From assembly GCA_937916515.1 (NCBI GenBank), contig CALFSX010000144.1:1-47718 (forward strand): a stretch of DNA of 47,718 bases, written 5' to 3'. A program made the translations under genes and the position numbers. How positions within the stretch are numbered: the stretch's first letter is position 1; each line of letters begins with the position of its first letter. Shown one piece after another: positions 9,724-32,983 of this stretch. The notes beneath the pieces are model-generated. The model saw only the letters and a program-made list of their open reading frames with translations, made no database searches and had not been told where the DNA came from. The stretch comes from an uncultured Planctomycetaceae bacterium (GTDB lineage: Bacteria > Planctomycetota > Planctomycetia > Planctomycetales > Planctomycetaceae).

Positions 9724-9855
9724 GCGGGTGAAGTCCTTGCCCATTGGCGTAGACGGCCGCAAGGCGTGGAACGTTTTCATCGCCGAGCCGCTCCGTTGTC
9801 GCTGCGAGAGTCAGGCCATCGGAGTGCGTTCCTCATTTTCATGTAAGACTTTAAC
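9724..9855 (-). repeat. Interspersed repeat family R1, copy 1 (reverse)
   Basis: Read on the minus strand it contains the family core GCGACAACGGAGCGG followed by CTCGGCGAT, then GTTCCACGCC and a degenerate terminal hairpin. At its other end (9842-9855) it carries the complement of the GTTAGAGTCTTACTT arm, in slightly degenerate form. It begins right after the stop of the FAH-family gene. It pairs with the opposite-facing copy at 9928-10065. Confidence 0.75.
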
Positions 9856-9927
9856 TGGGCGGCGGCAGGTTCAATGACACGTTAATGTTGCTGTTGTCTC
9901 AATCAGCCGCACGCGGCAACGCTAAGA

Positions 9928-10065
9928 GTTAGAGTCTTACTTAAAATGATGGGCGCACGGTGCGCGCATGTTGTTCGCAGCGACAACGGAGCGGTTTGGC
10001 GATTCGAGTGTTCCATGTCTTGCCGCATTCCACGCCACTGGGTCAAGGGCGAAGCCCTTGTTAGG
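9928..10065 (+). repeat. Interspersed repeat family R1, copy 2
   Basis: The complete module order is visible: left arm GTTAGAGTCTTACTTAAAA (9928-9946), a small GC hairpin GCGCACGGTGCGC (about 9953-9965), core GCGACAACGGAGCGG (about 9979-9993), TTCCA...CCACGCCACTGG, and terminal hairpin CAAGGGCGAAGCCCTTG (10044-10060) followed by TTAGG. It lies between the FAH gene and dgkA with no gene inside. Confidence 0.8.
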
Positions 10066-10171
10066 ATTTCAGGTCGTGGATCTTTGACAGGATCCACGAC
10101 CCGATGACTGAGCTGTGTCGTTGATGCTGAACTAAGGTTAAGGCGGGCGACGGTTTGAAGGGCGAGTTATC

Positions 10172-10537
10172 GTGTTAAAAAAACGTATCGCCAGTTTTGT
10201 CTACGCAGGACGTGGCGTTGTCACGTTACTGAAGACTCAAACAAATGCAAAAATTCACCTGCTGGCCACGGTGCTGGTGATTATTTGCGGCTTTGCCTTT
10301 GGCGTGACAAAGACCGAATGGTGCCTGCTGACACTGTCGATAGGGCTGGTGTTGGCTGCTGAAGCCTTGAACACGGCGATTGAATTCGCTGTTGATTTGG
10401 CCAGCCCTGAACAACACGAACTTGCTAAAAACGCCAAAGACGTGGCTGCTGGCGGCGTATTGCTTTCTGCAATCGCCGCAGCTGTTGTGGCCTTGTTTGT
10501 ATTTGGCCCACACTTCTGGACGCTTCTGTCACCATAA
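10172..10537 (+). CDS. dgkA: Diacylglycerol kinase (DgkA family)
   Basis: A 121-aa integral membrane protein with three hydrophobic helices (about 30-47, 50-75 and 93-115). It has the family signature EALNTAIEFAVDL (the catalytic Glu lies in this stretch) and HELAKNAKDVAAGGVLLSA. These enzymes phosphorylate diacylglycerol or undecaprenol at the inner membrane using ATP, feeding phospholipid turnover or carrier-lipid recycling. Length and motif order match the family. The start is the GTG at 10172, with GAAGGG about 12 nt upstream. It is followed by a large bipartite hairpin before a convergent gene. Whether the substrate is diacylglycerol or undecaprenol cannot be told. Confidence 0.92.
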   Translation: MLKKRIASFVYAGRGVVTLLKTQTNAKIHLLATVLVIICGFAFGVTKTEWCLLTLSIGLVLAAEALNTAIEFAVDLASPEQHELAKNAKDVAAGGVLLSAIAAAVVALFVFGPHFWTLLSP

Positions 10538-10542
10538 GTCAC

Positions 10543-10618
10543 CGTAGGGCCGGTTCCCATTGGCCGAGTCAAACGTGCAACCAAGTCGAAAACTCGGCCG
10601 GTAGGAACCGGCCCTACG
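10543..10618. terminator. Large two-tier hairpin between convergent genes (repeat family R2)
   Basis: The outer stem is 15 bp and perfect: CGTAGGGCCGGTTCC at 10543-10557 against GGAACCGGCCCTACG at 10604-10618. The inner stem is 8 bp (10562-10569 against 10592-10599, GGCCGAGT/ACTCGGCC). It starts 6 nt after the dgkA stop and ends 14 nt before the stop of the convergent hydrolase gene, so it probably terminates both transcripts. The 15-mer recurs at 18970-18984, which shows that it is also a dispersed repeat. Confidence 0.7.
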
Positions 10619-10631
10619 TTTTTGAATGCTG

Positions 10632-11726
10632 CTACGTTTCCAAGGCGACCAGGTTGGACATGCGCTGAATGGGTGACTGACTGGTTTCGTACGGCGTGGT
10701 TGTTAGAAACACGGCGTAGCGGCGTGAGGTCAGGTCCATCCACATCAATGTGCCGGTGGCTCCCCAGTGGCCGACGGTATCGTTGGATACAAAGTCGCCG
10801 AAAGATGCGTGGTGAGCCGCCCATTGGCGACGCCAGCCGAAACCCCATGGACGCCGGTTTCCGGCAAAGATTGGATCGACTGCCATCGGCAACAGCTGAT
10901 TTTCGAAAGACGCTCGAATCAATTCCGGATGCAGCACCGGTTGCTCCAGTTCGCTTTGTCCATCAGACAACAGCATGCGGGCCAGTTTGCCCAGATCTTC
11001 TGCCGTCGACACCATCCCACCCCATGCGGCTCCCAACATCCGCCAGTAACGACTATTCCAGCCCCAGTCTTCAGCGTCCGGTTGCCAGATGGGAAGTTCG
11101 CACGGCAACAGTGTCGGTAGAACGGTTGTGGCCTGTTCGTCATTCAGCCCAAGCCACGTGTTGACCATCCCGCAGGGTTCGAAGATCTGGCGTCTAAGAT
11201 ATTCACCCGCTGAGACGTTTGTCAGTTGCTGGATCAGTTCGCCCAGAATCAGGTAACCGACGCTGGAATACCGACACTCCGTGCCTGTGGCAAACTCCAA
11301 TTCAGCGGAAGCCGCTTCTTTGCGAAACACGTGCACAGAAGCATGTGCCGCTCGAAGTTCACGATTATTGGGCAGCATGTCCGGAAAGCCGGATGTGTGC
11401 GTCAGCAGATGACGCACGGTGATTCGTCGGTACGCGGCCCTGGAAAAATCCGGCAATACGGAACCGATGCGATCCGACAGACTGACCAGTCCTTCGCCGG
11501 CCAGTTTCAGTACGGCCATTGCGATCAGAGGTTTGGTGATGGACGCCACCAGGTATCGGCGATCTGCCGCTGGCGACGTTGTGGCCTCTTCCGCGTCAGC
11601 GGAAAACCGGGTGGCACTAAAGTTGGCACAAGTGCCGAATTCAATGTCTGCAAATTTAAGCTGGCCGTTGCGAGCGATGTTGTGAAGCTGATCGATAAGG
11701 GACATGTTGCTGTTGAGTGTCTGCAT
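10632..11726 (-). CDS. Beta-lactamase-fold serine hydrolase (class C / esterase-like)
   Basis: A 364-aa protein with the three signature sites of the serine beta-lactamase/DD-peptidase-like superfamily. These are SITK (S62, K65) as the SxxK nucleophile motif, RYSSVGY (Y153, second Ser at the position usually occupied by Asn) as the YxN-like motif, and HWGATG near residue 330 as the KTG-equivalent HxG motif. The conserved HLLTHTSGFPD follows SxxK as in class C-like esterases and peptidases. No signal peptide is evident, which suggests a cytoplasmic esterase or peptidase and not a resistance enzyme. An alternative start is Met8 (11705); no strong ribosome-binding site distinguishes the two. It is downstream of and co-directional with the large helicase (140-nt gap). 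Confidence 0.85.
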   Translation of the reverse strand: MQTLNSNMSLIDQLHNIARNGQLKFADIEFGTCANFSATRFSADAEEATTSPAADRRYLVASITKPLIAMAVLKLAGEGLVSLSDRIGSVLPDFSRAAYRRITVRHLLTHTSGFPDMLPNNRELRAAHASVHVFRKEAASAELEFATGTECRYSSVGYLILGELIQQLTNVSAGEYLRRQIFEPCGMVNTWLGLNDEQATTVLPTLLPCELPIWQPDAEDWGWNSRYWRMLGAAWGGMVSTAEDLGKLARMLLSDGQSELEQPVLHPELIRASFENQLLPMAVDPIFAGNRRPWGFGWRRQWAAHHASFGDFVSNDTVGHWGATGTLMWMDLTSRRYAVFLTTTPYETSQSPIQRMSNLVALET

Positions 11727-11865
11727 TCTGGAGTGATGTTTGAATGGTTATCGACGTGACTGAAACGTGCGTTCGATTAACACGTGGCCAGCTGCCAGGT
11801 TTTTGACTGCCTGTCAGGCTGTTTCTTTGCCACTGGCGGCGGGGTGAACGGCGGACGATTCACCG

Positions 11866-14781
11866 TCACATAAAACAGTCTCGAATATGCGGTAAAGAGT
11901 TCGGCATGCGATTTTCATTCTTTACGGTGTTCAGCGTTTCCTGACCATCGCCCTGCTGAGTGTAAACGGCGGCGCCTGTGCTGACTTTGTCGTTCCAGTG
12001 ACTTTGAAAAATATCAACGATATCTTTGTTTCGAGACAGAGCAGACGGAATTGCGTGATACCGAATAAGCGTGGATTCTTTTTCCTGAAACATCTTGCCA
12101 AACAGCTTTGGCATCCACCCGGTTAGACGCTTCTGTGTGATGTGATTGACGGAAAAGGGGATGATGTAACGAGGACGCTGGAACGGTGAACACAGTTCGT
12201 ACAGGCTTGACGTAAACAGCTTATTTTCTGCGTCGGTCGCATGTTTCAGGTAAAAGCGGATATAACCGCCGCTGCGTTCTGCCCAGTTAAGCTGCTGTGC
12301 TCCACTAAGTTGTTCGGTTTCAAACAGCGTTTCCAATACGGACTCTGCCAGCGCGGTCGATAAGCTTAGTGGCGTCCAGAATTCTGCGGCTGCTTTACTG
12401 GATGGCACTAACCCCTTGCCGATGCCCTTCTTTTCGACCTTCAGTTCAATCGCCGTTGTGGAGTCGCCTGAATAGGGGATTCCAATCTTCCAGAGCTCTC
12501 GAGCAGCGTCGCGATTTGCCGCTCGCTTCAGCATATCGCGATTGATTGAATCGGACGCTCGGTGCAGGTCGTCCGGGTTGGCTTCAGAAAGAGCCGCATG
12601 GACGTGCCCGACGCCTTTTTCAATGGCTCCATCGTCGGTGACTCCAAAAATGGTGCGGTGCTTTTTGCAGAAACGGTGATAGTCGTCGAGTCCTCTGGCA
12701 AAATCCGGAGCAATACACACGACATCCCAATTGTTGGCCAGCTTTTCTGGTTGCTGCGGATCAAGCCGAATCGAACGTCCTCGCAGTTGATTCACTGTCA
12801 TTGACGTCGAAACGGTGGTTAAATCGACCAATACGTTAATTTTGTTGGCGTCCCAGCCTTCGCCTAACAATCCTCGGGTGCCAACCAAACAACGGGTGAT
12901 GCCATCCTGAAACAGCTGAGTCACCATTTGTATGTAGACTCTGGGGCACCAGTCTGTTCCGGAACCTCGCACAACATGAAACGTGCGTTCGTCAACAAGT
13001 TCCAGTTGAACGTTGAAGCTGTTTTGCTGTAGCCAGTGTTGCGCGGCCGACAGAAACAGTTCTGCCATGTCGTGGTCGATTAAGATTGTGCTGCCCGTAA
13101 GCAGGATGGGATCAAGAGTGTTCGTGACCGGGTGATCAACCAGTTCACGAAACGCGGCGACAGCTCCACCGGCTTCTTCGTTTAACACGTGAGCCACGTC
13201 TGTGGAAACGGCGGACGCTTTTTCGTAGTCCGTGATGACGACTGCTCGCAGGTGTTCGTCCAGCTGTTCAAGTTCACATTCCAGAATGGGAACTAACGCT
13301 TTCACCTTGTTGTGCGTGTAGCCCAGAATTCGCGTGACGGGTGACGCACACGCTTGAGAACCGGTTTCAGTAATTTGCACTCCCAACAGTCGCAACCGAT
13401 CAATTGCCTGTTCGCAAAGAACCGCGTCTTCTGCGGCTGAACTGCGACGCAGGCCGTGACGGATATAGCGATCCAGCACGGTTTTCAAAACGTCTGACGG
13501 AAGGTCGGCCAGCGTCTGCGAACGGCGTAGCACAAGGCGTTCGAAAAAGCCGCCCACAGCGGGAACGTTTTTCGGCAGTTCACGATCGCTGGCGTTCAGG
13601 AATACTCGAGCCGCTTCTGCGAAATCAGGATCGCGGCGCTGAAACTCTTTCCATGTTTTGCAGGTTGCAGCGGGAAGTTCAAGTCGATCCAGAGTTTGAT
13701 AAAGCCAATCCGGCAAGGCGGGGACAGCGTTGTTTTTGACGGCGTTTTTTGGCTGGCACAGGGCGTCCAGCAGTTTCCGAAAATTGCGATCCACTTCGGA
13801 TACAAATGCCAGTTCCTGCTCGGTTGGTTTGGTGAACCACACAAGGTCCTGGTAAGGAGCCAGAAAGCCGTCTCGCACAACGGCGGGAACCGGCACTTCG
13901 TAATCGATGGGGCCGAAGTAGTCGTCGTAACGCAGAATGTCGTCCGCTTTCTGGCCGTCTCTATCAGGTGGAGTTGCGGTTAGTCCAACGATGACCGGGT
14001 TATCAAGAATCTCGTTGGCCGCTGCCAGAATTCTTCCCCAGTGCCCCATCAGATGGTGGCATTCGTCAAGGATGATCAGCCCGACTCCCGCGTCTTTCAA
14101 CCGCAGCAACGCGTCCATGGACGAACTGTTCAGCATATCCAGAGCCTGCCCATCAAACGCTTGCTGTTCGCGAGCTTGCTTTCGCCATCCGGCAAGTCGA
14201 GTGTTGAAGTAGTTCGGATTGCGTTGTTTAAGATCGTTGATCCATTCGTTGGCGGCTTCTGGACTGTCTGCGTGTTCCTGATCGATCAGTCGTTCAACCC
14301 ACAACGCGGTGGCCGCAAGATCTGTGTCGTCGCAGCCGCGAGCTGGCAGTGTGATACTTTGATAGGTGAGCGAAGTGAGAAGTCCCGGCGACAGCGGCGA
14401 CGTGCTGACAAGACTGCGATCGTTGGAATCTTCTGGCTGGTCGTCAAACGGAGATGTGGCGTCTTCGCGAAACAGGCTGACGCGAGAAGCCCACTGAGCT
14501 TGAACGGCTGAATTCGGCGATAGCACAAGTGCGGGCGTTCGAACGCATTCGGCCCACAGGAACAATCCCAGCACTGTTTTGCCGGACCCCGGTGGAGCCA
14601 CGATGTGCAGTTTCCGTTGCCCCGATTCCAGCTTTGCGCGAGCGATCTGTGCGACGTCCTGTTGTGATGGTTGCAGCTGTCCCTGAAACTTCAAATTTGG
14701 AAACGTACGTGTTTGCATGACGGCGAACGATAACGGATTCCCGTTCTGATGGCGATAGATTGCTGGTTGTGCGTATGGCAC
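11866..14781 (-). CDS. Large superfamily-2 DEAD/DEAH-type helicase of unknown role
   Basis: A 971-aa protein. Motif I is APPGSGKT (K68), motif II is DECHH (239-243) and motif III is LTATPPDRD (267-274). Motifs V and VI lie in the second RecA-like domain: LVGTRGLLGEGWD and NQLRGRSIRLDP. The layout resembles the translocase subunit of type I/III restriction enzymes and related phage-defence helicases, but no nuclease or methyltransferase neighbour is seen. A ~230-residue insertion between motifs III and IV and a C-terminal ~250 residues (about 720-971; PYSGDSTTAIELKVEKKG then RYIIPFSVNHITQKRLTGW) match nothing I recognise. Met22 (MQTRTFPNLKF) is a possible alternative start. The helicase call is firm; the biological role is open. 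Confidence 0.85.
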   Translation of the reverse strand: MPYAQPAIYRHQNGNPLSFAVMQTRTFPNLKFQGQLQPSQQDVAQIARAKLESGQRKLHIVAPPGSGKTVLGLFLWAECVRTPALVLSPNSAVQAQWASRVSLFREDATSPFDDQPEDSNDRSLVSTSPLSPGLLTSLTYQSITLPARGCDDTDLAATALWVERLIDQEHADSPEAANEWINDLKQRNPNYFNTRLAGWRKQAREQQAFDGQALDMLNSSSMDALLRLKDAGVGLIILDECHHLMGHWGRILAAANEILDNPVIVGLTATPPDRDGQKADDILRYDDYFGPIDYEVPVPAVVRDGFLAPYQDLVWFTKPTEQELAFVSEVDRNFRKLLDALCQPKNAVKNNAVPALPDWLYQTLDRLELPAATCKTWKEFQRRDPDFAEAARVFLNASDRELPKNVPAVGGFFERLVLRRSQTLADLPSDVLKTVLDRYIRHGLRRSSAAEDAVLCEQAIDRLRLLGVQITETGSQACASPVTRILGYTHNKVKALVPILECELEQLDEHLRAVVITDYEKASAVSTDVAHVLNEEAGGAVAAFRELVDHPVTNTLDPILLTGSTILIDHDMAELFLSAAQHWLQQNSFNVQLELVDERTFHVVRGSGTDWCPRVYIQMVTQLFQDGITRCLVGTRGLLGEGWDANKINVLVDLTTVSTSMTVNQLRGRSIRLDPQQPEKLANNWDVVCIAPDFARGLDDYHRFCKKHRTIFGVTDDGAIEKGVGHVHAALSEANPDDLHRASDSINRDMLKRAANRDAARELWKIGIPYSGDSTTAIELKVEKKGIGKGLVPSSKAAAEFWTPLSLSTALAESVLETLFETEQLSGAQQLNWAERSGGYIRFYLKHATDAENKLFTSSLYELCSPFQRPRYIIPFSVNHITQKRLTGWMPKLFGKMFQEKESTLIRYHAIPSALSRNKDIVDIFQSHWNDKVSTGAAVYTQQGDGQETLNTVKNENRMPNSLPHIRDCFM

Positions 14782-14980
14782 GGGAAAATTGCCTTCTTAT
14801 TCACATGCGTTGAGATGTCGTAGATTGTTTGGCCGCGATTGTTGCTGGCTGTCACCAAATGGGTGGAAGACGGACCTCACGCTGTAAACGCCGAGCAAAA
14901 ACGCCTACACTGAAGCTTATTAGTACCGATTGCGCCGGTGTTGCATGGCGGTGCAAAGGCAGTGTGTTCGCGAGTTCAAT

Positions 14981-16870
14981 ATGGCAGTTCTCAAACATAT
15001 TTCGTGCAAAGAGCCTCACACGGAGTTTCCCGTGTCCAGCGAGACGAACGTCTTTGGCAGGCACGAAGACTGCGATATTGTTGTTAATGCGTTGCCGGTC
15101 AGTCGTCGGCATTTTCAGATTCTTCACGACGGCAGCCATTTTTTTATCGAAGACCTGCAAAGTCGCAACGGCACTGTCTTAAACGGCAAACCTCTGCGAG
15201 TGAAGACGATGCTGTTTGATGGCGATCGTATTGAGGTTTCGAATCTTCGCTACGTGTTTTTGACACGTGACTCACTTTCGGAATTCTCAGGCAGCTGGGG
15301 GATCCGCGCTGAGGTCATCAAAGTCTCCAAAACCATGAACGGCGATGATGATGGCGACGACGATTCCGTGCGTCGCCAGACCGTCGGCTATGGAGACATT
15401 ATTTCCAGCGAAGAACTCGGTTCCGATCCGATCGACGCCAGTTGCGTTCAGGCTCGCATCGCGGTCAGCGATGGCGGGGCAGCGTGGCCGGTCACCAGCG
15501 AATCGACGCAAAAACTAAATCACTCACTGCGTCTGCTGCATGCGTTAAGGCGAACCAACCGTACCGAAGAAGTCATTGCTCGCTGTCTGCAGTTTCTGTT
15601 CGACACATTTCCACCAGCCGAACGTATCTCTTTGGTGATGCGTGACGAAAGCGGTGACGGTGTCAGAGTTGTGGCGGCTGTGTCGCGATTGCCTGGACAG
15701 GTCGTTGAAATTTGTCTTCCTGTCGTGCGAACAACCATGCAGACATCGGAAGCCCTGCTGTTTATGGATCACAGTCGTCGGAAATCTTCCAGCATTCCGG
15801 AGCTTCATACCGACGCAGTTAGAATCGTATTGGCTGCTCCGTTAGCCGGACTATTGGGACGCTGCTTTGCCGTGTTGCAGATGGATACCAGCAACGTAAA
15901 ACAGCCACTTACCAAGAATCACCTGGAACTTCTTGTCATTCTTACTCACGTAATTTCAGCGGCTGTGGAGCAGGCTGAAGATATTGAAGTGCGAGTAGTT
16001 AAAGACGTCAAACGGCAATTGGCGATCGAATCAGAACGTCAGCGATTGCTGCTTGAATCGATTTCTGCGCCGGCGATGTCGGGGTACCGACTTATGCATC
16101 AGCGGCTTGGGGGGCACGCTAAGGCCACAGAGTTTGTCGACTATGTTCGGATCCCGGATGGCCGGGTTGCCTGTGTTTTATGTGATGCATTTAAACAGCG
16201 GCCGAATTCGGAATGTTCAGTCACGTTGGTGTTTCGAATGCTTGCCGAATCTTTGTGCACGACGTATTCGGCAGGCGAAGCGTTGTCAAATGCTCAAATT
16301 TCAATGCACCTGCGACGAGCCAGCATTGCCGTCGAACTGTCGGTGGCCGTGATTGTTCTGGATCCTGAGTCTTCAACCGTTTCTGTGGCGATGGCTGGCG
16401 ACTTCTGTGTGAACGTCATCAGCAACAGTTGCCTGTCCACGCTTGATACGTCCGAATATTCGGGGCCGCGAGTCAGCGGAAATACGCAGTCCGGTTTGGT
16501 AAAGGAGTTCATGGCCGCTGCGCCGTCGGCTGACGGCCATTACCAGATGGATCTTGTGTTGAATCAAGGTGATCGATTGCTGGTGTTCACGAATGCGATT
16601 TCGAATCTGGATTCTGCGTCAGGCAGTTTCATGGATTCCGATGGCGTGCGTGAACTGGTGTCAGAAGCTTCATTGGAACCCAGCGAATTATTTGAAGCTC
16701 GACTTAGCGAACGTATTGTTCAGTCCTGCAACAACAGGGCCGTTAGAAATTCAATTGCCTTTGTCTCGATTCAAAAGCACAGTTCAATTACAGCCGGAAA
16801 TGTCGCGACTACAGTCACCGATATGAGAGACGGTCTTATCAAACAACACGACGGGATCGGAAATCGGTAA
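14981..16870 (+). CDS. FHA - GAF - PP2C/SpoIIE-like signalling protein with degenerate phosphatase site
   Basis: About 629 aa from the ATG at 14981 (MAVLKHISCK), preferred over an upstream in-frame start at 14930 because the FHA fold begins immediately. FHA domain (about 5-95): FGRHEDCDIVV, VSRRHFQI and LQSRNGTVLNG, the residues that bind phosphothreonine. GAF-like domain (about 185-340). PP2C_SIG-like C-terminal domain (about 365-610): MSGYRLMHQRL, CVLCDAF, SVAVIVLDPESSTVSVAMAGDF and DRLLVFTNAISNLDS. The GGDFYD, D-V-SGKG and YTDGvtE acidic motifs of active SpoIIE/RsbU phosphatases are altered (ATEFVDY, CDAFKQR, FTNAIS), so catalytic activity is doubtful. It is probably a scaffold reading kinase output. 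Its stop is 3 nt before the helicase start. Confidence 0.82.
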   Translation: MAVLKHISCKEPHTEFPVSSETNVFGRHEDCDIVVNALPVSRRHFQILHDGSHFFIEDLQSRNGTVLNGKPLRVKTMLFDGDRIEVSNLRYVFLTRDSLSEFSGSWGIRAEVIKVSKTMNGDDDGDDDSVRRQTVGYGDIISSEELGSDPIDASCVQARIAVSDGGAAWPVTSESTQKLNHSLRLLHALRRTNRTEEVIARCLQFLFDTFPPAERISLVMRDESGDGVRVVAAVSRLPGQVVEICLPVVRTTMQTSEALLFMDHSRRKSSSIPELHTDAVRIVLAAPLAGLLGRCFAVLQMDTSNVKQPLTKNHLELLVILTHVISAAVEQAEDIEVRVVKDVKRQLAIESERQRLLLESISAPAMSGYRLMHQRLGGHAKATEFVDYVRIPDGRVACVLCDAFKQRPNSECSVTLVFRMLAESLCTTYSAGEALSNAQISMHLRRASIAVELSVAVIVLDPESSTVSVAMAGDFCVNVISNSCLSTLDTSEYSGPRVSGNTQSGLVKEFMAAAPSADGHYQMDLVLNQGDRLLVFTNAISNLDSASGSFMDSDGVRELVSEASLEPSELFEARLSERIVQSCNNRAVRNSIAFVSIQKHSSITAGNVATTVTDMRDGLIKQHDGIGNR

Positions 16871-16873
16871 CGA

Positions 16874-18883: not shown

Positions 18884-18898
18884 CCGGGACGCCCCGGC
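18883..18898 (+). terminator. Short GC hairpin at the helicase stop codon
   Basis: GCCGGG (18883-18888) pairs with CCCGGC (18893-18898), loop ACGC. The stem begins with the last base of the TAG stop. There is no T-tract nearby. Confidence 0.4.
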
Positions 18899-18969
18899 GG
18901 GCGATGTCTTGGCGTGATGGGATCTGTTGAAGAGAGCGTTTTCAGCCGAGTACGCCGGATAGCTGTTAT

Positions 18970-18984
18970 CGTAGGGCCGGTTCC
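18970..18984. repeat. Single arm of repeat family R2 (CGTAGGGCCGGTTCC)
   Basis: Identical over 15 nt to the arms of the hairpin at 10543-10618, and again located between convergent genes (the DinG-like helicase and polX). The similarity to the arm at 10604-10618 (reverse strand) continues for a few more bases (TRCCGG) and then stops. The partner arm is missing here. Confidence 0.65.
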
Positions 18985-19024
18985 TGCCGGGCAAGGGCAA
19001 CTTTGGGTTGTTAACTTAATTTCG

Positions 19025-22538: not shown

Positions 22539-22611
22539 GGCGGTGTCTTCAATGTAAATAACTTAGACTACTTATTGCAGGGAACATGTTCACGTTGAGT
22601 CAAGTTTTCGG

Positions 22612-22671
22612 AGCGACAACGGAGCGTTTCCGAGCGGCAGCTCGAATGGTCTGAGGCACCGCCTCGTTAGA
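22612..22671 (+). repeat. Interspersed repeat family R1, variant arm (type 2)
   Basis: The copy starts with the family core GCGACAACGGAGCG and continues with a different arm. This arm contains two small hairpins, CGAGCGGCAGCTCG (22631-22644) and GAGGCACCGCCTC (22653-22665), followed directly by GTTAG. The same arm occurs at 32941-32983 in reverse orientation. The copy lies between the two tatA genes. Confidence 0.75.
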
Positions 22672-22717
22672 ACGTCATTGACGCGGCAGGCTGAAAATGT
22701 GCAGAAGTGCGAATTCG

Positions 22718-23212: not shown

Positions 23213-23308
23213 ACGGGCGTTGAAAGTTTATGCAGGCGAGCGGATTTCGAATCAAATTGCACAACAAAATGCGGTGGTGGCTTCCAAAACGTGAAAAATC
23301 CGGCAGGG

Positions 23309-23995: not shown

Positions 23996-24275
23996 TAGTG
24001 ATCTCCGTTGCAAAAGTGCATTCGCAGGAATGTGTTAGATTGGCGGATTGGTCGCAGCGACATGCCAACAGGAAAGTATGAGAAGCTTGCAAACCAATTG
24101 AAAAGAATGGCCGGCGCGAAACGAGTACCCCTGTTCGACGATTGCCAAGGGGCTTCATTCAGCGAACGCCGTAATCTTTGCAGTTTGTTAGATCTCACGG
24201 CCTGAAACTTACGTTCAGCAAAACGCAATATGTGCGACATGTTCCGAAACATTTTGTCGATTTGTAGGCATTTCG

Positions 24276-24311
24276 GAAGCGTTTTATGATCTACAAGTCT
24301 GAAAACGCTTC
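24276..24311. repeat. 10-bp perfect inverted repeat upstream of the AAA ATPase gene
   Basis: GAAGCGTTTT (24276-24285) pairs with AAAACGCTTC (24302-24311), with a 16-nt loop, about 190 nt upstream of the ATG at 24504. It is followed by a T-rich run (24315-24325). It may be an operator, or an attenuator or terminator of an upstream leader or small RNA. The rest of 23996-24503 contains no gene I can support. Confidence 0.45.
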
Positions 24312-24503
24312 ACGTTTATTTTTGTCGCCCGCAGTTTCCGTCGCAATCGATCCGGTCGCCATTTTGGGTTTTGTGCGACGCAACCAGACCATTTAAGAGG
24401 CGGGTTAACGCTCGTTTTGCAAAGTCGCTACACTCTCGTCGGCTTGGTTTGCTGGAAAAATTTGGAAAAGAATGTCTTACTGTTCATCAGAAGCAACGTG
24501 ATT

Positions 24504-25994: not shown

Positions 25995-26085
25995 TAAACG
26001 TATTCCGGAAGCTGCCACGCAGAATCGCAGTGAAAAACGCCTTACTCTAATGAAACAGGTGGGATGTTGACTTCGAACAAAATTG

Positions 26086-26550
26086 CTATTCGTTCGGACT
26101 GACCGAATCTGTTGTGACAGCTTCTACGTTTTCCTTGTCCTTTTCAGCCTGAATGGGCACCTGAGGCCTCGCGTTAAGCAGTGTGCCCAGCAAAAGCGTG
26201 CCGAAAACTCCCATTAGTAAGCTGCCAGACAATGCCGTTCCGACGGATGCCAGTGCGCGTGGGCGGTTCGGCTGAACAAGTCCGATCAAACACAGAACAA
26301 ACGCGACAAACGACAGCACCGCTGTCGAACAGCCCAAAATCAATAGACGCAGTTGATCCGGGCTGCCGGTCTCCAGCAGCTTAAATTCCGAAATTTCTGC
26401 CGGCATCTGGTCTGCCATCGAAAACATCAACGCACACATGGCAGTCGACGCAAAGGCCAGCACAGCTCCGATCACCGCCACTGTGTTGGGCGCTGATTCT
26501 GGAAGACTGGATTCATGGTTTGAATCATTCTTTTCGATGCTTGAAGACAT
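26086..26550 (-). CDS. Small membrane protein, three predicted transmembrane helices
   Basis: A 154-aa protein with a hydrophilic N-terminus, then hydrophobic helices at about 23-45 (NTVAVIGAVLAFASTAMCAL), 70-92 (LILGCSTAVLSFVAFVLCLI) and 100-125 (LASVGTALSGSLLMGVFGTL), and a charged C-terminal tail. The composition suits an inner-membrane protein of unknown function. It is convergent with the Ycf46-like gene, with about 90 nt between the stops. No family is recognised. Confidence 0.65.
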   Translation of the reverse strand: MSSSIEKNDSNHESSLPESAPNTVAVIGAVLAFASTAMCALMFSMADQMPAEISEFKLLETGSPDQLRLLILGCSTAVLSFVAFVLCLIGLVQPNRPRALASVGTALSGSLLMGVFGTLLLGTLLNARPQVPIQAEKDKENVEAVTTDSVSPNE

Positions 26551-27106
26551 GCCGCCATGTTACTCGTCTTCCCGTGCCGTTTTGTAGGCAGTCAGTGCCG
26601 AAACCACTCGAATCGTTGAACTCCGCGTCACAATTCTCCTCGTTTCCTGTCACAGCCAAGACAATAAACGGAGGTGTCGTATATGTAGGCGGCGACATGC
26701 AACTTCCCATTGCCAGTTGCTAAATAGCGGTGATGTCGGTGGCAGAAGGAAACACAGCAAGTGCTAGCCACAGATGAAACACAGATTTACACAGATGGTT
26801 GATTTGCCGGAGTCAAATGTGACACCAGATTTTCATCTTTGAACATCTGCGTTTCATCTGTGGCCCCGAACTCATCGATTCCACGGTTCCCAACAACATC
26901 GGAAAGTAATGCGAGGGCAAGGTCGCATGCTTTCTGAGGGCGGCCGGAGCGGCTGAGGCGATGCAACTTTCTATGTGGTTCATCGTTGCTCGGCAGCAAA
27001 TCGCAGGCGGAGGCCCTGTTGATTTGCTATCATTCTAATTCGAAGCCACTTACGCGTCGAGAAGTTTGTTCAGCCGCCCACTTCACCAGCCTTGAGGAGC
27101 CCAAAG
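26551..27106. other. Intergenic region with a CACAGATG-type inverted repeat
   Basis: No gene is supported here; a 70-codon minus frame at 26787-26999 has no motif. The notable structure is the inverted repeat at 26767-26864, given as its own entry. The promoter of the beta-propeller gene should lie near the right end. Confidence 0.5.
26767..26864. repeat. Inverted repeat of the CCACAGATGAAACACAGAT type
   Basis: GCCACAGATGAAACACAGAT (26767-26786) is mirrored at 26845-26864 with 19 of 20 positions complementary; the spacer is 58 nt. A further ACACAGATG unit follows the left arm (26789-26797). Motifs of this kind (CCACAGATGaaCACAGAT) are known as dispersed intergenic repeats in several bacterial phyla. 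No transposase is associated. Confidence 0.7.
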
Positions 27107-28378
27107 GTGATTGCACGTTCGATCATTTGCATCGCGATATTTCTTGTTGCTCTGCTGAACTCTTCAATACCAACAAGTTCATTGCAAGCCGACGACTGGC
27201 CGCAGATTCTGGGACCTGCCAGAGACGGTATCGCAAACGGCGAAAGCCTGCTGCCTCGCTGGCCAGCTGGTGGCCCGGAAGAATTGTGGACACGACCGGT
27301 CGGTGAAGGATTTGCAGGAGTTGCCGTCAAAGGGAATTCCGTGATCTTGTTTCACCGTAAAGGCAACGAAGAAATTGTTGATGCGTTAACGGCTGATACC
27401 GGCAAGGCTCAGTGGACATCATCCAGCACGTGCAGCTATCGAGGCGGAATTTCCAGCGACACAGGGCCACGTTGCGTGCCGTTGGTGACTGATAATCGAG
27501 TGGTTGTGTATGGCGTTGAAGGCATGCTTCGTTGTCTGAATTTCGCCGATGGAAAAGAAATCTGGGAACGCGATACGTGGACAGACTTCGGAGCACCGGA
27601 AGGGTATTTCGGAGCGGGCAGCACACCTGTTGTTGTTGGCGATAAAGTGATCGTGAACGTTGGAGGTCGAACAAACGCAGCCGTGGTCGCATTCTCTTTG
27701 GAGACCGGGAAAACTCTTTGGCAGAACTTCGATGACACAGCCAGCTATTCATCACCCGTTGCAGCTTCCATCGACGGAACCGAACACGTTTTTGTGGTGA
27801 CTCGCCTGAACGTCGTTTCACTAAATCCGGCAGACGGCAGTCTTCGATTTCAATTCCCGTTCGGCATGCGTGGTCCAACAGTTAACGGAGCCACTCCGGT
27901 TGTTGTGAAAGACCACCTGTTTGTCAGTTCCAGTTATCGAGTCGGCAGTGTTTGGGCAAAGATTTCAGACGCCTCCAGTTTGAATGTGGCCAGTGGTGAA
28001 GACCTGTTGGCGACTCAATATGCGACCCCCATCAAATACAAAGACGTGTTGTTTGCCGTAGATGGACGACAGGATAGCGGCACCGCCACGATAAAGTGTA
28101 TTGATCCGATCGCCCAGAAAGTACTTTGGAAACGTGGGGACTTTGATTACGGGACAATGCTGCGAGTTAACGATGATTTGCTGTTTTTGTCGTGCGGCGG
28201 CGAACTGATTCGACTTTCTGCCGACTTGCAGAAGTATCAGGAAATCCATCGCAGCACGGTTCTTGCCGACACTCCTCAAGGCTATCGGTTGCCGGCAATC
28301 AGCAATGGTCGCCTGTTTGTACGCGACAACGACGTGCTTAAATGCCTGAGGGTCGGCAAGACGGTCGTTGCCAAATAA
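27107..28378 (+). CDS. Exported PQQ-like beta-propeller repeat protein
   Basis: About 423 aa from the GTG at 27107, chosen because AGGAG sits 8 nt upstream; a TTG at 27092 is also in frame. Signal peptide: IICIAIFLVALLNSS, cleavage near LQAD. The remainder is a WD/PQQ-type propeller. It has DDWPQILGPARDGIANGESL at the start, recurrent blade motifs (ADTGKAQW, ADGKEIWERD, LETGKTLWQNF, ADGSLRFQF, IDPIAQKVLWKRG) and alternating VVVGDKVIVNVGG strands. Such outer-membrane or periplasmic propellers are abundant in planctomycetes; they lack the PQQ dehydrogenase catalytic residues and are generally treated as binding or structural proteins. The MoxR ATPase follows on the same strand after 180 nt. Confidence 0.85.
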   Translation: MIARSIICIAIFLVALLNSSIPTSSLQADDWPQILGPARDGIANGESLLPRWPAGGPEELWTRPVGEGFAGVAVKGNSVILFHRKGNEEIVDALTADTGKAQWTSSSTCSYRGGISSDTGPRCVPLVTDNRVVVYGVEGMLRCLNFADGKEIWERDTWTDFGAPEGYFGAGSTPVVVGDKVIVNVGGRTNAAVVAFSLETGKTLWQNFDDTASYSSPVAASIDGTEHVFVVTRLNVVSLNPADGSLRFQFPFGMRGPTVNGATPVVVKDHLFVSSSYRVGSVWAKISDASSLNVASGEDLLATQYATPIKYKDVLFAVDGRQDSGTATIKCIDPIAQKVLWKRGDFDYGTMLRVNDDLLFLSCGGELIRLSADLQKYQEIHRSTVLADTPQGYRLPAISNGRLFVRDNDVLKCLRVGKTVVAK

Positions 28379-28558
28379 TGTGACATCATTCTCTGCGTGG
28401 GTCTCCGGTTTCCTGAGGAAACGAGCAAAACGCTTGCCATGAGGCAGTTCAATAGATCCGCCGTTCATCTGCCGCTATCATTCTGCTGCGACAAACTGAA
28501 TCAGAGCATTCAGGCCATATTGGCTTCTTAAACCACAGTTGAATCCAGGGACGTAACG

Positions 28559-29575
28559 TTGGCTGACAAACGCGACTTCGAAGAATTCCTGACAAAGTTC
28601 CGCAAGCACCACGAAGTGATGGTGGAGGAGCTTCACAAAGTGGTGATCGGCCAGGACGCCGTCATTGATCAGATTTTGGCCGCTATCTTCACGGGAGGGC
28701 ATTGCCTGCTGGTCGGTGTGCCCGGGCTGGCGAAGACTCTGGTGGTCAGCACGATTGCCAAACTGCTGGACGTGGAATTCCGCCGCATTCAGTTCACGCC
28801 GGACTTGATGCCGTCAGACATTACCGGCACTAACGTGTTGGAGGAAACAGAACAGGGACGTCGTGAGTTCCGCTTTGTGGAAGGCCCCGTGTTTACCAAC
28901 GTGCTGTTGGCCGACGAAATTAACCGGACTCCGCCAAAAACACAGGCCGCTTTGCTGCAGGCGATGCAGGAAAAAGAAGTCACTGTCGGGCAGAAAACCT
29001 ACAATCTGCCGGAACCGTTTTTCGTCATCGCAACTCAGAATCCGATTGAGCAGGAAGGCACGTATCCTTTGCCGGAAGCTCAACTTGACCGCTTCATGTT
29101 CAACGTGAAAGTCGACTATCCAACGCTGGACGAAGAGGAACGCATTCTGGAAGCCACCACCACCGGCGAACGAGCTGAAGTTCGCACAGTGCTGACGGCG
29201 AAAGCGATTTTGTACCTGCAAAAACAAATCCGCCAGATTGTCGCGTCCCCTTTGATTATCAGCTATGTAACTCGACTTGTGCGAGCGACTCGCCCCAACG
29301 ATGAAGCGTCGCCGGACTTTGTAAAGAAACTGGTTGATTGGGGGGCTGGCCCCAGAGCCGGGCAATACCTGATTGCGGGCGCCAAGGCGATGGCCGCTAT
29401 GGACGGTCGGCCCAATGTCACAATTGCTGACGTTCGAAAAGTCGCCATTCCCGTGCTGCGACATCGAGTCTCCACGAATTTTCAGGCTCAGGCAGAAGGT
29501 ATGGCGTCAGAAGACATCATTCAGAAGCTGGTCAACGAAGTTCCGGAACCGAATATTCCAAAGTACGACAAATAG
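28559..29575 (+). CDS. MoxR-family AAA+ ATPase
   Basis: A 338-aa protein with Walker A GVPGLAKT (K59), VEGPVFTNVLLADEINRTPP as Walker B region, QEKEVTVGQKTYNLPEPFFV, sensor ATQNPIEQEGTYPLPEAQLD and the C-terminal lid with GAGPRAGQYLI. MoxR ATPases act as chaperones, usually beside DUF58 and von Willebrand factor A genes that they serve. None of these partners follows; repeat-rich DNA comes directly after the stop. The proposed start is the TTG at 28559 with AGGGA about 8 nt upstream; no ATG gives a complete N-terminus. Confidence 0.92.
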   Translation: MADKRDFEEFLTKFRKHHEVMVEELHKVVIGQDAVIDQILAAIFTGGHCLLVGVPGLAKTLVVSTIAKLLDVEFRRIQFTPDLMPSDITGTNVLEETEQGRREFRFVEGPVFTNVLLADEINRTPPKTQAALLQAMQEKEVTVGQKTYNLPEPFFVIATQNPIEQEGTYPLPEAQLDRFMFNVKVDYPTLDEEERILEATTTGERAEVRTVLTAKAILYLQKQIRQIVASPLIISYVTRLVRATRPNDEASPDFVKKLVDWGAGPRAGQYLIAGAKAMAAMDGRPNVTIADVRKVAIPVLRHRVSTNFQAQAEGMASEDIIQKLVNEVPEPNIPKYDK

Positions 29576-29629
29576 CCACCTGACCTCGCCATTACCAAAC
29601 AGGGGTGTCATTGAACCCGGCGATGTCGA

Positions 29630-29778
29630 GTTAGAGTCTTGCTTAAAATGATGCGCGCACGGTGCGGGAATGTTGGCCGTAGCGACAACGAAGCGGCTCG
29701 GCGGTTAGAAGGCTCCATTTCTTGCGACGATCCACGCCACAGGGGCAAGGGCGAACCCCAACGCCGTGAAGGGATTTC
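29630..29778 (+). repeat. Interspersed repeat family R1, copy 3
   Basis: Left arm GTTAGAGTCTTGCTTAAAA (29630-29648), hairpin GCGCACGGTGCG, core variant GCGACAACGAAGCGGCTCGG (from about 29682), TTCTTGCGACGATCCACGCC, and a degenerate terminal hairpin (CAAGGGCGAACCCC). It lies 55 nt downstream of the MoxR gene. Confidence 0.75.
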
Positions 29779-29851
29779 AGGTAGTGATTTTGGGGGTCAC
29801 CATGTAAATCGTCGTCCGCGAGGGTGATTCCGTCCTGAAGAGTTGCCGTCA

Positions 29852-29949
29852 CCGACCTTGCGTCGGATGGAGCAGCGACTTCTTGGCTACGGCGCGGGAA
29901 TTCCCGATGCAGTAGTTTGAAAGTCTGACTACCTCCGACACAAGGTCGG
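29852..29949. repeat. Pair of CCGAC/CAAGGTCGG palindromes in opposite orientation
   Basis: CCGACCTTGCGTCGG (29852-29866) and CCGACACAAGGTCGG (29935-29949) are nearly reverse complements of each other and are each self-complementary at their ends. The second extends to an 8-bp perfect hairpin CCTCCGAC/GTCGGAGG (29932-29952). They sit between two R1 copies and look like another short repeat unit. Confidence 0.55.
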
Positions 29950-30075
29950 AGGAGAGTTGACTCAAAATTCTCGACCAAACGTCAGCAGGCTTGCCTGTTT
30001 CATAGTAGTTTGGCGTACCTCAACTGTGGCGAACCTATCCCGCAAACAGTCACAGATCAAAATCCCATCACGGCG

Positions 30076-30183
30076 TTGGGCGAAGCCCTTGTTCGTAGCG
30101 ACAACGGAGCGGCTCGGCGGTTCGAAGGTTCCACGTGTTGCGACGACCCACGCCACAGAGTCAAGGGCGAAGCCCTTGTTAGT
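30076..30183 (+). repeat. Interspersed repeat family R1, copy 4, overlapping a stop codon
   Basis: It begins with a terminal-hairpin module (GGGCGAAGCCCTTGTT), followed by the core GCGACAACGGAGCGGCTCGG (from 30098), GTTCCACGTGTTGCGACGAC, CCACGCCACAGAGT, and a second terminal hairpin CAAGGGCGAAGCCCTTG (30162-30178) with TTAG after it. The TTA at 30179-30181 is the reverse complement of the TAA stop of the minus-strand BBP7 gene. Confidence 0.8.
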
Positions 30184-31492
30184 ACTGAAACAGCAGACCT
30201 ATGTTCCATGTCTGCAACATGAAGTCGTTGCTGGATTTCTTTAGTCGTGGCTGTTGAGGGGATCCGTTCCACGCAATCGATTCGGCTGGGCGGCTGAGGC
30301 TTTCAATCGCCAGCAGCGACCAGCCAACTCGTAATGCCAACGAGTTTTTGCCGCTGAAGGTTCCGTAACGCTTTAGCAGTCCCATCAGTTCAATGTCGGC
30401 GTAAATGTTCTGTTCGAAAAAGCCAGTGCCGTAAGAACGAGACCGGTTACTGGTCACTGTCAGTGTCTGATCAAATCCTGGAGCTAGCCCGTTGCCAATT
30501 CCCTGGCCGATCAGGGTCTGCTGTGTATCCGCGAATAATCCACCAACACGTGAATTCGAACTAAGGCGAAAACGTTTTCCCGTTGTGGCAAGGTTTACTC
30601 CAAAACACGGCCCGAAGAACCAACTATCTGAAGCAACGGCCAGACTCGATTGATACGGTGGCACTGCGGCGACGGGAGGCGTGAGCGATGATTCCACTGG
30701 AAGGCCGTTTGCTTGCTGAGTGTATGACAGACCACTGTGAGCTCCCGCAAAGTTGAACGTTTCATCGATGTCGATGTAGCGAACGCCGACCGTGGGTTGC
30801 ACCAGAATGGTTCCCATGTAGCCGCCGTATGGCGTGTAATCTGCACCCAACCCATACATACTGGTATTAAGCGCAACGCGAAAGTACTGATCGTAAGGCA
30901 CAGCATATCCACCGGCCCCATCGCTTAAAGGAAGCGCGGCGGTTACGCGCACGGTCGTGGGGTCAGCTCCAGCGTCGAATCCGCCCAGTCCGCGCTGCCA
31001 TGATCGCCCGGTGTCGCCAAACCAGAAGCCGTTGACTTCCAGGCCTGAGTTCTGCTGGCCTCGATAATTCAGCCGGTACTTCATTCCCGTATGAATCGAA
31101 TCGGAAACCTGCTGGCCTACAAGGCCCGGTTCAAGCGCGGTTCCGCCGACATGAGTTCCTTCAATCGCACCAAGATCGACCGACTTAAATCCGCCGCTGA
31201 CGCTTTGAGGTGCATTTCGTGCTCCCACTAAAACGTTGGAATCATCGATTTTGGCAAAAATTGCTTCTACAGAAAGCGACAGGCTGCCCACTGATTGTTG
31301 ACCGTTGCGTTGCTGCGGGTTATCGGCAAAGGCCTCGCTGGTGAAGGAAACTGGTTCAGCTGAAATTACAGCATCTGTGGTTGACTGTGCGATCACAGAT
31401 GTATGGGCGCCCAGCAACAGTAATCCCGCTGCAATGCATCGAATTTTGTTCAGTTGAGGCAACGTGACTTGGCAAGGTAGTAGCGACATCAT
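30179..31492 (-). CDS. BBP7-type outer-membrane beta-barrel protein
   Basis: About 437 aa from the ATG at 31492, chosen because GGAAGG lies about 8 nt upstream and a signal peptide follows (CIAAGLLLLGAHTSVIAQ). The frame itself is open from 31606. The remainder is beta-rich, with features of the planctomycete BBP7 barrel family: GMKYRLNYRGQQNSGLEVNG, GFWFGDTGRSWQRG, PTVGVRYIDIDETFNF, FFGPCFGVNLATTGKRFRL and LALRVGWSLLAIESLSRP. It ends in an aromatic residue (LLFQY), as is usual for outer-membrane barrels. Its TAA stop lies in the terminal hairpin region of repeat copy 4. It probably acts as an outer-membrane porin-like or structural protein. Confidence 0.78.
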   Translation of the reverse strand: MMSLLPCQVTLPQLNKIRCIAAGLLLLGAHTSVIAQSTTDAVISAEPVSFTSEAFADNPQQRNGQQSVGSLSLSVEAIFAKIDDSNVLVGARNAPQSVSGGFKSVDLGAIEGTHVGGTALEPGLVGQQVSDSIHTGMKYRLNYRGQQNSGLEVNGFWFGDTGRSWQRGLGGFDAGADPTTVRVTAALPLSDGAGGYAVPYDQYFRVALNTSMYGLGADYTPYGGYMGTILVQPTVGVRYIDIDETFNFAGAHSGLSYTQQANGLPVESSLTPPVAAVPPYQSSLAVASDSWFFGPCFGVNLATTGKRFRLSSNSRVGGLFADTQQTLIGQGIGNGLAPGFDQTLTVTSNRSRSYGTGFFEQNIYADIELMGLLKRYGTFSGKNSLALRVGWSLLAIESLSRPAESIAWNGSPQQPRLKKSSNDFMLQTWNIGLLFQY

Positions 31493-32093
31493 GTCGGCCT
31501 TCCGGTCTTTGAATTCATCAACATTTCGCTGCTGCATCATGCGTAGCGATGGGGACCCGCTGTTCGAAATTGCAATTGGTGTTTGCTGGTTTTGATAACC
31601 ATGCATGTCAGATCGACGGGGCCGCCTGCTGGCCTGAGTACAGCCACGACGACCGCGTATTGTGTTGATCGCAACAGTGTGAACGTTTGGTGAGTCTTTA
31701 GGGGGTGATTCAGGGGAAAGGCGTCTTGCATTTCAGCTCGACTGATGGTTTTCGATCACCAATAATTGGACTGTTGGCAGGATAGATGGATGAATTTGAT
31801 AATACGGTTTGGGCAATGCTGTGGCTCAAAGTGAATCGGTGCCGAAGCGAGGCTGTCAGTCGCGGATTTTGCGGCTTAGCGGTGTGGTGGATTGTCCTCG
31901 CCATAACAGACGCCTGTCATCACAGGCAGACATTTCCGCGAATTACCGGATGGACATTTACGGGATTCAGCACATGTGAAATGACATTGGTTCTTTATGA
32001 ATCTATGCTCTGCGGTGTGGCTTAGTGTTATGGTGACGCTGGTCTCTGCTTGTGTGCCGATTTTCATTCAATTGTTTAACATAAGTCCCCTCC
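31493..32093. other. Divergent intergenic region
   Basis: This separates the minus-strand BBP7 gene from the plus-strand hypothetical gene at 32094. The frames on either strand (for example a 79-codon plus frame at 31786) lack motifs. A small hairpin GCCTGTCATCACAGGC (31910-31925) is visible; otherwise no structure was noticed. Confidence 0.4.
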
Positions 32094-32696
32094 ATGTCGT
32101 CGAAGTTCTGGAATGAGTTTGCCAAACGCGCGGAAACTATCGAACAGGCGTTGCTGAATCGTGATGCCTCGGTGTTGTCAAAGTTGGCCGACGACCTGCA
32201 ACAGCAACTGTGGGACGTCGATAAGCGGCTGAACATTAACGTGTCCGGCCCGGAGCCATTTCAGTTAGGAATCTTGCCGCTTCCGGGGGCGGAATCAGCT
32301 GCAGGAAAATTTGTGTCTGGTCAACAGGCACCGCGGCACTGGGAGGTGGTTGTTGGGTTGCCGGAACTGGACGATCTTGAATCCGTTTTGATTCAGGATG
32401 ACCTTGGTGACACGCTGGAAGTGCAATATTCCGACGTGGAGGTCAAGGTTCTTCCACCGACTGAACGAGGCGTTTCGATCGTGCTTTCGTTGCTTGAAGA
32501 TTTCGATCCGGAAGGATCGCGCAAGCACCTTTATCAGGCAGCGGCGGACAACATAGTGAATACGCTGCTGGGCGGATTTCCACCAGAACTGGCGCAGGTT
32601 TTGATTCTTCCCCGGTCAGTCACAGGCCGATTCTCTCCAGCAGAAACGCTGCGACAACAGTGGCTTGATGTCACGCAGCAGTCCAGGAAATCCTAA
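32094..32696 (+). CDS. Conserved-looking hypothetical cytoplasmic protein
   Basis: A 200-aa acidic protein, MSSKFWNEFAKRAETIEQAL and on, with no signal peptide or transmembrane helix. The N-terminal helix looks coiled-coil-like (LSKLADDLQQQLWDVDKRL). It continues with a beta-rich central part (HWEVVVGLPELDDLESVLIQ; LEVQYSDVEVKVLPPTERG) and a helical C-terminus (RKHLYQAAADNIVNTLLGGF). It is not recognised; codon use and composition are those of a real gene. The TAA stop (32694-32696) falls inside the CTAACAAGGGCTTCGCCC end of repeat copy 5. Confidence 0.7.
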   Translation: MSSKFWNEFAKRAETIEQALLNRDASVLSKLADDLQQQLWDVDKRLNINVSGPEPFQLGILPLPGAESAAGKFVSGQQAPRHWEVVVGLPELDDLESVLIQDDLGDTLEVQYSDVEVKVLPPTERGVSIVLSLLEDFDPEGSRKHLYQAAADNIVNTLLGGFPPELAQVLILPRSVTGRFSPAETLRQQWLDVTQQSRKS

Positions 32697-32945
32697 CAAG
32701 GGCTTCGCCCTTGACCCAGTGGCGTGGCACGCAGAAACAGGTGGAAAGTGCGAATCGCCGAGCCGCTCCGTTGTCGCTACGGCCAACATGCGCGGATCAT
32801 TTTATACGTTGCGCGTCGGGAAATGATGTGTTTCCCGTTTAACCCGACTCGTAGAGGAGGACTTCGGTCCATTGCTGTCGACCTCCTCTGCGAGTCGGGT
32901 TAAACGAATCAAGTTATGCCGCGTGGGGTATAAGTAAGACTCTAA
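32693..32945 (-). repeat. Interspersed repeat family R1, copy 5, split by an insertion
   Basis: On the minus strand the copy reads left arm GTTAGAGTCTTACTTA (32945-32930), insertion, AAAATGATCCGCGCATG, core GCGACAACGGAGCGG, CTCGGCGATTCG, CCACGCCACTGGGT, and terminal hairpin CAAGGGCGAAGCCCTTG with TTAG. The stop codon of the plus-strand gene at 32094 lies in its terminal CTAAC. Confidence 0.8.
32805..32932. mobile_element. 128-bp MITE-like insertion inside repeat copy 5
   Basis: It interrupts the R1 left arm between ATCATTTTA and AGTAAGAC, which are contiguous in copy 2. TATAC (32803-32807) and GTATA (32928-32932) flank it as inverted ends, which fits a TA target duplication. Inside are a 7-bp hairpin CGGGAAA/TTTCCCG (32817-32837) and a 24-bp stem (32837-32860 against 32882-32905, one G:U) with a 21-nt loop. 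There is no coding capacity. Confidence 0.6.
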
Positions 32946-32983
32946 CGAGGCAGTGCCTCAGACCATTCGAGCTACCGCTCGGC
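32941..32983 (-). repeat. Type 2 arm of repeat family R1, second copy
   Basis: TCTAACGAGGCAGTGCCTCA followed by GACCATTCGAGCTACCGCTC matches, in reverse, the arm at 22612-22671 with very few differences. It abuts the left arm of copy 5 and shares its CTAAC pentamer. Confidence 0.75.

Follow-up and report, generated by a model that had tools for sequence, protein, structure and literature searches.

R1, a high-copy family of small gene-less mobile elements inserted at TTAG in an uncultured Planctomycetaceae genome

The window analysed here is a stretch of 47,718 nucleotides (nt) from the genome of an uncultured Planctomycetaceae bacterium, described as a marine planctomycete and placed in Fuerstiella (8,331,375 bases, or 8.33 Mb, in 343 contigs; labelled G000, with G-numbers for the genomes compared and L-numbers for the loci read). 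It holds several copies of R1, a family of small mobile elements that carry no gene, have defined ends, keep their hairpins between species and insert precisely at TTAG. The R1 core, GCGACAACGGAGCGG, counted at up to two mismatches, occurs six times in the window, in both orientations and where the original prediction had placed it: 9788-9802(-), 9980-9994(+), 22613-22627(+), 29682-29696(+), 30098-30112(+) and 32763-32777(-). Shuffled versions of the window contain 0.20 cores on average and at most one. Searches with profiles of the two R1 units, type 1 and type 2, built from full copies, recover seven pieces, five of type 1 and two of type 2 (Table 1). A single complete type 1 is among them, the match at 9928-10064. 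The complete type-2 unit is also matched by a covariance model over 22605-22670 at an E-value of 1.6e-27, its sequence being itself part of the model alignment.

Table 1. R1 pieces in the window, with their parts and profile matches.
Positions	Strand	Feature	Details
9733-9855	-	Degenerate type-1 unit	TTAA as left foot, decay at the right end; matches profile positions 2-124 of 138
9929-10064	+	Complete type-1 unit, TTAG to TTAG	Profile match 9928-10064, 146 bits
9945-9965		Left hairpin of unit 9929-10064
9980-9992		Core of unit 9929-10064
10044-10060		Terminal hairpin of unit 9929-10064	CAAGGGC-GAA-GCCCTTG
10061-10064		Right foot of unit 9929-10064	TTAG
22563-22670	+	Complete type-2 unit	Ends in GAGGCACCGCCTCGTTAG; profile match 22562-22670
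29630-29759	+	Type-1 unit	Left foot TTAG; profile positions 2-131 of 138
30088-30182	+	Type-1 right part	After GGGCGAAGCCCTTG/TTCGTAGCGAC; profile positions 44-138
32693-32803	-	Type-1 unit	Profile positions 17-138; left arm interrupted by nested hairpin element
32942-33011	-	Type-2 right part	Positions 40-111; left arm of type-1 unit directly next, same strand

All copies had been described as intergenic. In the window the pieces do sit between the longer open reading frames (ORFs), save for 4-base overlaps with the ends of three of them (32094-32696, 30179-31606 and 33008-34288): the right foot CTAA at 32693-32696 spans the stop codon of ORF 32094-32696(+), and the right foot TTAG at 30179-30182 spans that of the convergent ORF 30179-31606(-). 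R1 pieces are also crossed by two short mechanical ORFs, 29643-29978 and 29957-30244. Genome-wide the description is inexact, because 72 of 261 matches of at least 60 nt overlap an ORF of at least 100 codons by more than 40 nt, although part of these ORFs may be spurious.

Across the genome, 603 cores are found at up to two mismatches (25 in a reversed control) and 469 at up to one (control 2). The first figure is about 60 times the limit of roughly ten copies set by the original prediction, so that R1 forms a dispersed high-copy family. The profile searches covered 2.40 of 8.33 Mb, made up of blind stretches and of others picked mostly around known copies, integrase or Y1 genes, or on known contigs, and gave 278 non-overlapping matches at E<1e-3 (207 type 1 and 71 type 2; 145 on the plus and 133 on the minus strand); reversed sequence gave none at the same threshold. 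Copy density is based only on 40 blind stretches, which hold 68 matches in 571,504 bases, or 119 per Mb; by extrapolation the genome carries about 990 copies, amounting to 1.3% of its bases. R1 matches lie in convergent gaps in 61 cases and in divergent ones in 24, against 115 and 132 among background gaps. The copies are old: identity of type-1 copies is 87% with the consensus and 89% with the closest other copy, and not one of 92 reaches 97% with any other.

R1 consists of two related units, each with a left hairpin, a common core, a right terminal hairpin and TTAG at either end. Full type-1 copies measure about 133 nt (mostly 110-138) and full type-2 copies about 107 nt (mostly 105-109). 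From left to right, type 1 comprises TTAG, AGTCTTACTCAAAATG, the left hairpin ATGCGCGCACGGTGCGCGCAT, GTTGGTCGTA, the core GCGACAACGGAGC, a middle part and the right end CAAGGGC-GAA-GCCCTTG followed by TTAG. Type 2 comprises TTAG, ACTTCTTATTTCAGGG, the left hairpin AACTTG..CAAGTT, TTTCAGA, the same core, and then GAGC-GNNA-GCTC, GAGGC-ACN-GCCTC, G and TTAG. Its core is GCGACAACGGAGC or GCGACGTAGTCGC-like, with the fully paired form in 16 of 38 distinct rows; GCGACAACGGAGC may be read as the same hairpin with two G.A mismatches, and the GCGACCAACGGGAGC copies of G004, G072 and G246 would gain one C-G pair. Neither consensus has terminal inverted repeats, the left and right ends being unlike. Every module named in the original prediction (left arm, GCGCACGGTGCGC hairpin and the two 3' arms) is present in the sequence, and its hairpin-ended arms with a TTAG foot are confirmed, with feet at both ends of the units. 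What had been read as exchangeable modules with two alternative 3' arms is real as to the arms; these belong to two related units, which also form head-to-tail composites.

Such composites are common. Consecutive units stand head to tail with one TTAG in common, type 2 often ahead of type 1: among 32 full copies directly followed by another R1, the order is 2->1 in 23, 2->2 in four, 1->1 in three and 1->2 in two. A recognisable left arm is absent from many type-1 copies. Tandem type-1 arrays are seen at L092:14274-14669, L097:17458-17660, L096 and G000 C125:1-188, and include short units, about 86-88 nt long, whose joins read CCCTTG/TTCGTAGCGAC or CCCTTG/TTCGCAGCGAC. Around positions 89-96 the type-1 consensus is only 40-50% conserved, between well-conserved blocks, with CCAGCCAA, TCTGCGTG and GCCGCATT as recurring alternatives. 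In the window, the right foot of the type-1 unit 29630-29759 is lost, its sequence continuing into AACGCCGTGAAGGGATTT, and an inverted pair (29746-29777 / 30060-30091) links the GGGCGAAGCCC hairpin with AACGCCGTGAAGGGATTT-like sequence. This join recurs in other R1 copies, for example L056, and may mark a third related unit. The hairpin element nested in a type-1 left arm (32804-32935; arms 32836-32860 / 32882-32906, 96% complementary) apparently has TA on each side.

Insertion at TTAG is most directly seen at L151, where a tandem type-1 pair lies within a repetitive extragenic palindromic (REP) sequence of another family. When its flanks are joined with a single TTAG, they align with an uninterrupted paralogue of that REP (L232) at 88.6% identity over 123 nt, free of gaps. 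The search for empty sites, which the original prediction had proposed, thereby reveals precise insertion at TTAG. It yielded 44 spanning matches at E up to 5, most of the others being excluded because they contain R1 sequence or involve overlapping loci; paralogous sites were used because the protein chosen for the orthologous search within the genus matched weakly. Comparison of the window copy 9929-10064 with L194 was set aside as a second empty site, being too weak at 82.5% over 40 nt.

Among the 133 full copies, the left foot is TTAG in 79 and the right foot in 70. In 13 of 104 copies that stand first in their row, the start coincides with the TAG stop codon that closes an upstream frame at least 80 codons long; counting TTAG-footed copies and frames of 120 codons upwards, 9 of 58 do so, where 7.2% would be expected (p 0.022). 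In copies that begin at a stop codon in this way the left foot is host sequence, and hence target. Two stop-codon copies have other left feet (ATAG in L185, CTAG in L231) and still end in TTAG on the right, as do L238 and L242 of G072, a genome of another genus; these four speak for insertion without target duplication. A guide sequence that varies with the foot was also considered and rejected, as the best p of 0.015 among about 256 tests per group amounts to nothing.

The folds predicted for both units consist of separate local hairpins, and that of type 1 is stable (z -3.99 as DNA and -3.16 as RNA). Covariation was assessed in an alignment of 39 type-2 right halves (A1), selected for equal length of 66 nt from 41 G000 sequences (30 retained) and 19 G005 sequences (nine retained). 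In A1, 90.5% of cells are paired against 85.6% when shuffled and 24-46% in slid pairings, and 24 cells are doubly changed against 5.2 when shuffled. The terminal hairpin of G005 is of the GCGGG-CCT-CCCGC kind in seven of nine rows, with TTAG next to it in eight of nine. The terminal hairpins vary by paired substitutions between the two species, conservation by paired changes being established for the type-2 right half only; type-1 copies taken by themselves show little or no covariation. Loops are also constrained: hairpin 3 of type 2 has the loop G-N-N-A in 32 of 39 rows of A1, and among 166 type-1 right ends passing a filter of at most five substitutions, the terminal loop reads GAA in 132 and fits GNA in 147. 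C-GNA-G and C-GNNA-G are unusually stable loops in single-stranded DNA. Since single copies decay freely and new variants retain their hairpins, the pattern suggests a mobile element rather than an RNA gene. A role mainly as a functional RNA or 3' mRNA element, multiplied by ordinary duplication, is the least probable of the readings considered and very improbable in itself. The type-1 folds are stable and copies lie at gene ends, but in a comparison with Rfam nothing in the window attains a gathering score, the decay of type-1 copies goes with little covariation or none and with no wobble bias, and presence among relatives is patchy.

This distribution was followed in BLAST and covariance searches that scored at most two and, under strict filters, at most 35 candidates per genome, respectively, so that the counts for relatives are lower bounds. 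The exact type-2 32-mer occurs in two metagenome-assembled genomes (MAGs) of Fuerstiella sp. and in one MAG of an uncultured Planctomycetaceae, among them G001 and G005, both of the genus of the window. The type-1 consensus has BLAST matches in at least 11 of 297 genomes. The covariance search, over 148 genomes of the class, gives matches at E<=0.01 in at least 12: at least 35 in G000, 25 in G004 of the same genus, at least 35 in G072 of another genus in the same family, and one weak match in each of nine further genomes; among the matches listed, the genus is represented only by G000 and G004. Cores at up to one mismatch number 32 in G005 and 1-7 in the six other members of the genus, close to the 0-4 of their controls. 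Plasmids and phages gave no blastn match to R1.

The arrangement of R1 can be compared with the IS200/IS605 family. Elements of this family are recognised through a hairpin near each end, with the target tetranucleotide on the left and a final tetranucleotide on the right, as set out in passages of a published account (PMC6006769), and the R1 layout matches each of these features. The two also share the lack of terminal inverted repeats and insertion 3' of a tetranucleotide. R1 differs in having TTAG as both feet, more than one internal hairpin, left ends that are modular, and 2->1 composites, and in that neither a TnpB nor, in the 2.40 Mb read, an autonomous partner was found for it. Gene-less derivatives of IS200/IS605 are known from haloarchaea as palindrome-associated elements (PATEs). 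On balance, R1 probably works most like a gene-less element of the IS200/IS605 type, a reading held with moderate confidence.

In the most likely mode, a Y1 (HUH) enzyme supplied in trans would recognise one folded strand of R1 through the hairpins on its left and right, and would cut and join that strand at the tetranucleotide in the manner of IS200/IS605; both the single-strand route and the enzyme class are inferred. A unit has a hairpin plus TTAG as its right end and goes in just 3' of a target TTAG (or NTAG), which places TTAG on either side of it. A resident unit could then receive the next one at its right TTAG, or an inner TTAG could act as an alternative left end, and this would produce the 2->1 composites and the solitary type-1 copies.

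The host genome contains six Y1 genes above the cut-off (L031-L036), none of which is flanked by R1. This result bears on type 2 through the covariance model, which was made from type-2 right halves, and on type 1 through the repeat scan; the R1 piece nearest to a Y1 gene is a type-1 fragment about 1.4 kb from that of L032. Other repeats, identified by eye, lie on either side of four of the genes (GCCGCAGGGCGTTAGCCCCGG-type at L036, GCCCGACGCTAGCG-type at L033, CCGGCTTTAGCCGG-type at L031 and GTAGGGCCGGTTCC-type at L034), GTAGGGTGGGCG-type repeats lie upstream of the gene at L032, and L035 is near a contig end. Because R1 adjoins none of the six and five of them stand beside other repeats, the Y1 genes look like ordinary repeat-transposase pairs, among which R1 would be an orphan. 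A second hairpin repeat, GTAGGGCCGGTTCC..GGAACCGGCCCTAC, is present in the window at 10543-10618 and 18970-18995, and since it also stands on both sides of the L034 Y1 gene, it looks like the GTAG-type REP of that gene.

Two of the Y1 proteins, L033 and L036, show by eye the motifs NHVH, WT and Y....Q, which are given for class-3 TnpA-Y1 in passages of the same account (PMC6006769). There, class-3 genes are described as flanked by several hairpins with a CnGA foot, reaching about 600 copies in Solibacter (PMC6006769). In R1, CnGA precedes type-2 hairpins 2, 3 and 4 in 36, 35 and 30 of 39 rows, respectively, and it might be guessed that a class-3-like TnpA-Y1, that of L033 or L036, is the R1 enzyme.

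Several observations weigh against an IS200/IS605-type mechanism. Deviating left and right feet agree in nine copies against 2.2 expected (p 0.0002), and the G004 copy L254 (less clearly L247) has one unusual foot twice, which looks as if the target were occasionally duplicated. There is a strong bias in the base that comes next after the right foot TTAG, with G in 78% of 86 type-1 copies and A in all ten G072 copies, and the clean empty site has G after TTAG, where 37 of 42 REP arms have C. In A1, neither pairs with a double change (4 against 2.7 shuffled, with 61 of 500 shuffles as high) nor pair types (10 against 10.5) are in excess, and wobble pairs at type-1 right ends (GT 23, AC 25) show no strand bias. 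The CnGA motif was noted post hoc, coincides in part with two stems and does not occur in type 1. To these are added the missing association with Y1 genes and the fact that the 2.40 of 8.33 Mb read yielded no larger or autonomous element bounded by R1 ends; the left-to-right spacings of 4.8 and 4.9 kb examined as candidates for one are mutually unrelated. Searches for TnpB and for IS91-type Y2 (PF04986) gave no match, the latter giving none in control genomes either and so being uninformative.

A possible, more tentative alternative is that R1 represents a separate single-strand system of Planctomycetaceae, in which modular multi-hairpin units, with composites at a common TTAG and alternative left ends on a constant right end, would be moved wholly in trans by a class-3-like TnpA-Y1 or by another recombinase whose gene has a different linked repeat or none. 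To judge from passages of the published account, R1 resembles class-3 TnpA-Y1 repeats in its hundreds of copies, in its occurrence in Planctomycetes and in the presence of class-3-like genes, and may resemble them in the several hairpins of type 2 with a putative CnGA foot; unlike them, it lacks CnGA in type 1, and the class-3-like genes L033 and L036 have different repeats at their sides.

It is unlikely that R1 is a miniature inverted-repeat transposable element (MITE) of a DDE-type transposase that duplicates a 4-bp TTAG target. The TTAG on both sides and the concordant deviating feet, including those of L254, would follow from such duplication, whereas neither unit has terminal inverted repeats and the stop-codon copies L185, L231, L238 and L242 combine ATAG or CTAG on the left with TTAG on the right.

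Classical REP/REPIN families kept by a resident REP-associated tyrosine transposase (RAYT) share with R1 high copy number, palindromic hairpins and a position near gene ends, with the preference for convergent gaps, and Y1 genes are present in the genome. The original prediction compared R1 to them for its hairpins next to a TTAG-like foot; the single-strand, IS200/IS605-like layout of that comparison holds, and identity with RAYT-dependent REPs does not. REPs with a RAYT are defined, in passages of the account cited, by a 5' GTAG or GTGG foot at the hairpin (PMC6006769). A REP is a hairpin of about 20-65 nt that flanks its RAYT gene, whereas R1 measures 107-136 nt, has several hairpins and a 3' TTAG, and flanks none of the Y1 genes that the proposed check brought to light, L031, L033, L034 and L036 having other repeats on both sides and L032 beside it. 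That R1 belongs to this class is decidedly improbable.

Equally doubtful is movement by an integron-type tyrosine recombinase that would treat R1 units as sites like attC and join them at G^TTAG(R). Like attC, R1 would be a folded single strand with a (G)TTAG(R) right junction, one TTAG being common to consecutive units, and two integron-integrase genes lie above the curated cut-off in the host genome (G000 C142:10258-11085 and C43:7128-7799). Unlike attC, R1 is dispersed in both orientations without a cassette gene, and its ends do not pair into one long hairpin (R''/R', L''/L'). Neither integrase gene has an evident cassette array beside it (L151, L152, L153), C43 ending inside its gene, with the upstream side beyond the contig; the 13.2-kb contig with the best integrase holds three R1 units and one fragment, and L152 none. 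Only 43% of 103 copies have G just ahead of the left foot. Integrases above the cut-off occur in 9 of 20 genomes, including G010 and G011, which have no R1 match, and not in G005, which is rich in type 2. The single contig of G004 has 49 matches to the integron-integrase profile, many scoring equally, with frames of 358 or 386 amino acids and some in opposed pairs (1867139-1870135 and 3459316-3462312); they probably represent a multi-copy recombinase element.

Two further repeats in the window are an inverted repeat, GCCACAGATGAAACACAGATTTACACAGATG, at 26767-26864 (31-nt arms, 87% complementary) and, at the end of the window (47643-47718), a directly repeated 37-nt unit with 97% identity.

No published description of the R1 family was found in the literature, as judged by titles and the openings of abstracts. 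About 1.3% of a bacterial genome, by extrapolation, would consist of one gene-less element with defined ends and a defined target, which we infer to be mobilised by a Y1 enzyme supplied in trans. According to the account cited above, how class-3 proteins behave has still to be studied by experiment (PMC6006769). Identifying the enzyme of R1 would show whether TnpA-Y1 can amplify elements beyond the repeat beside its own gene.

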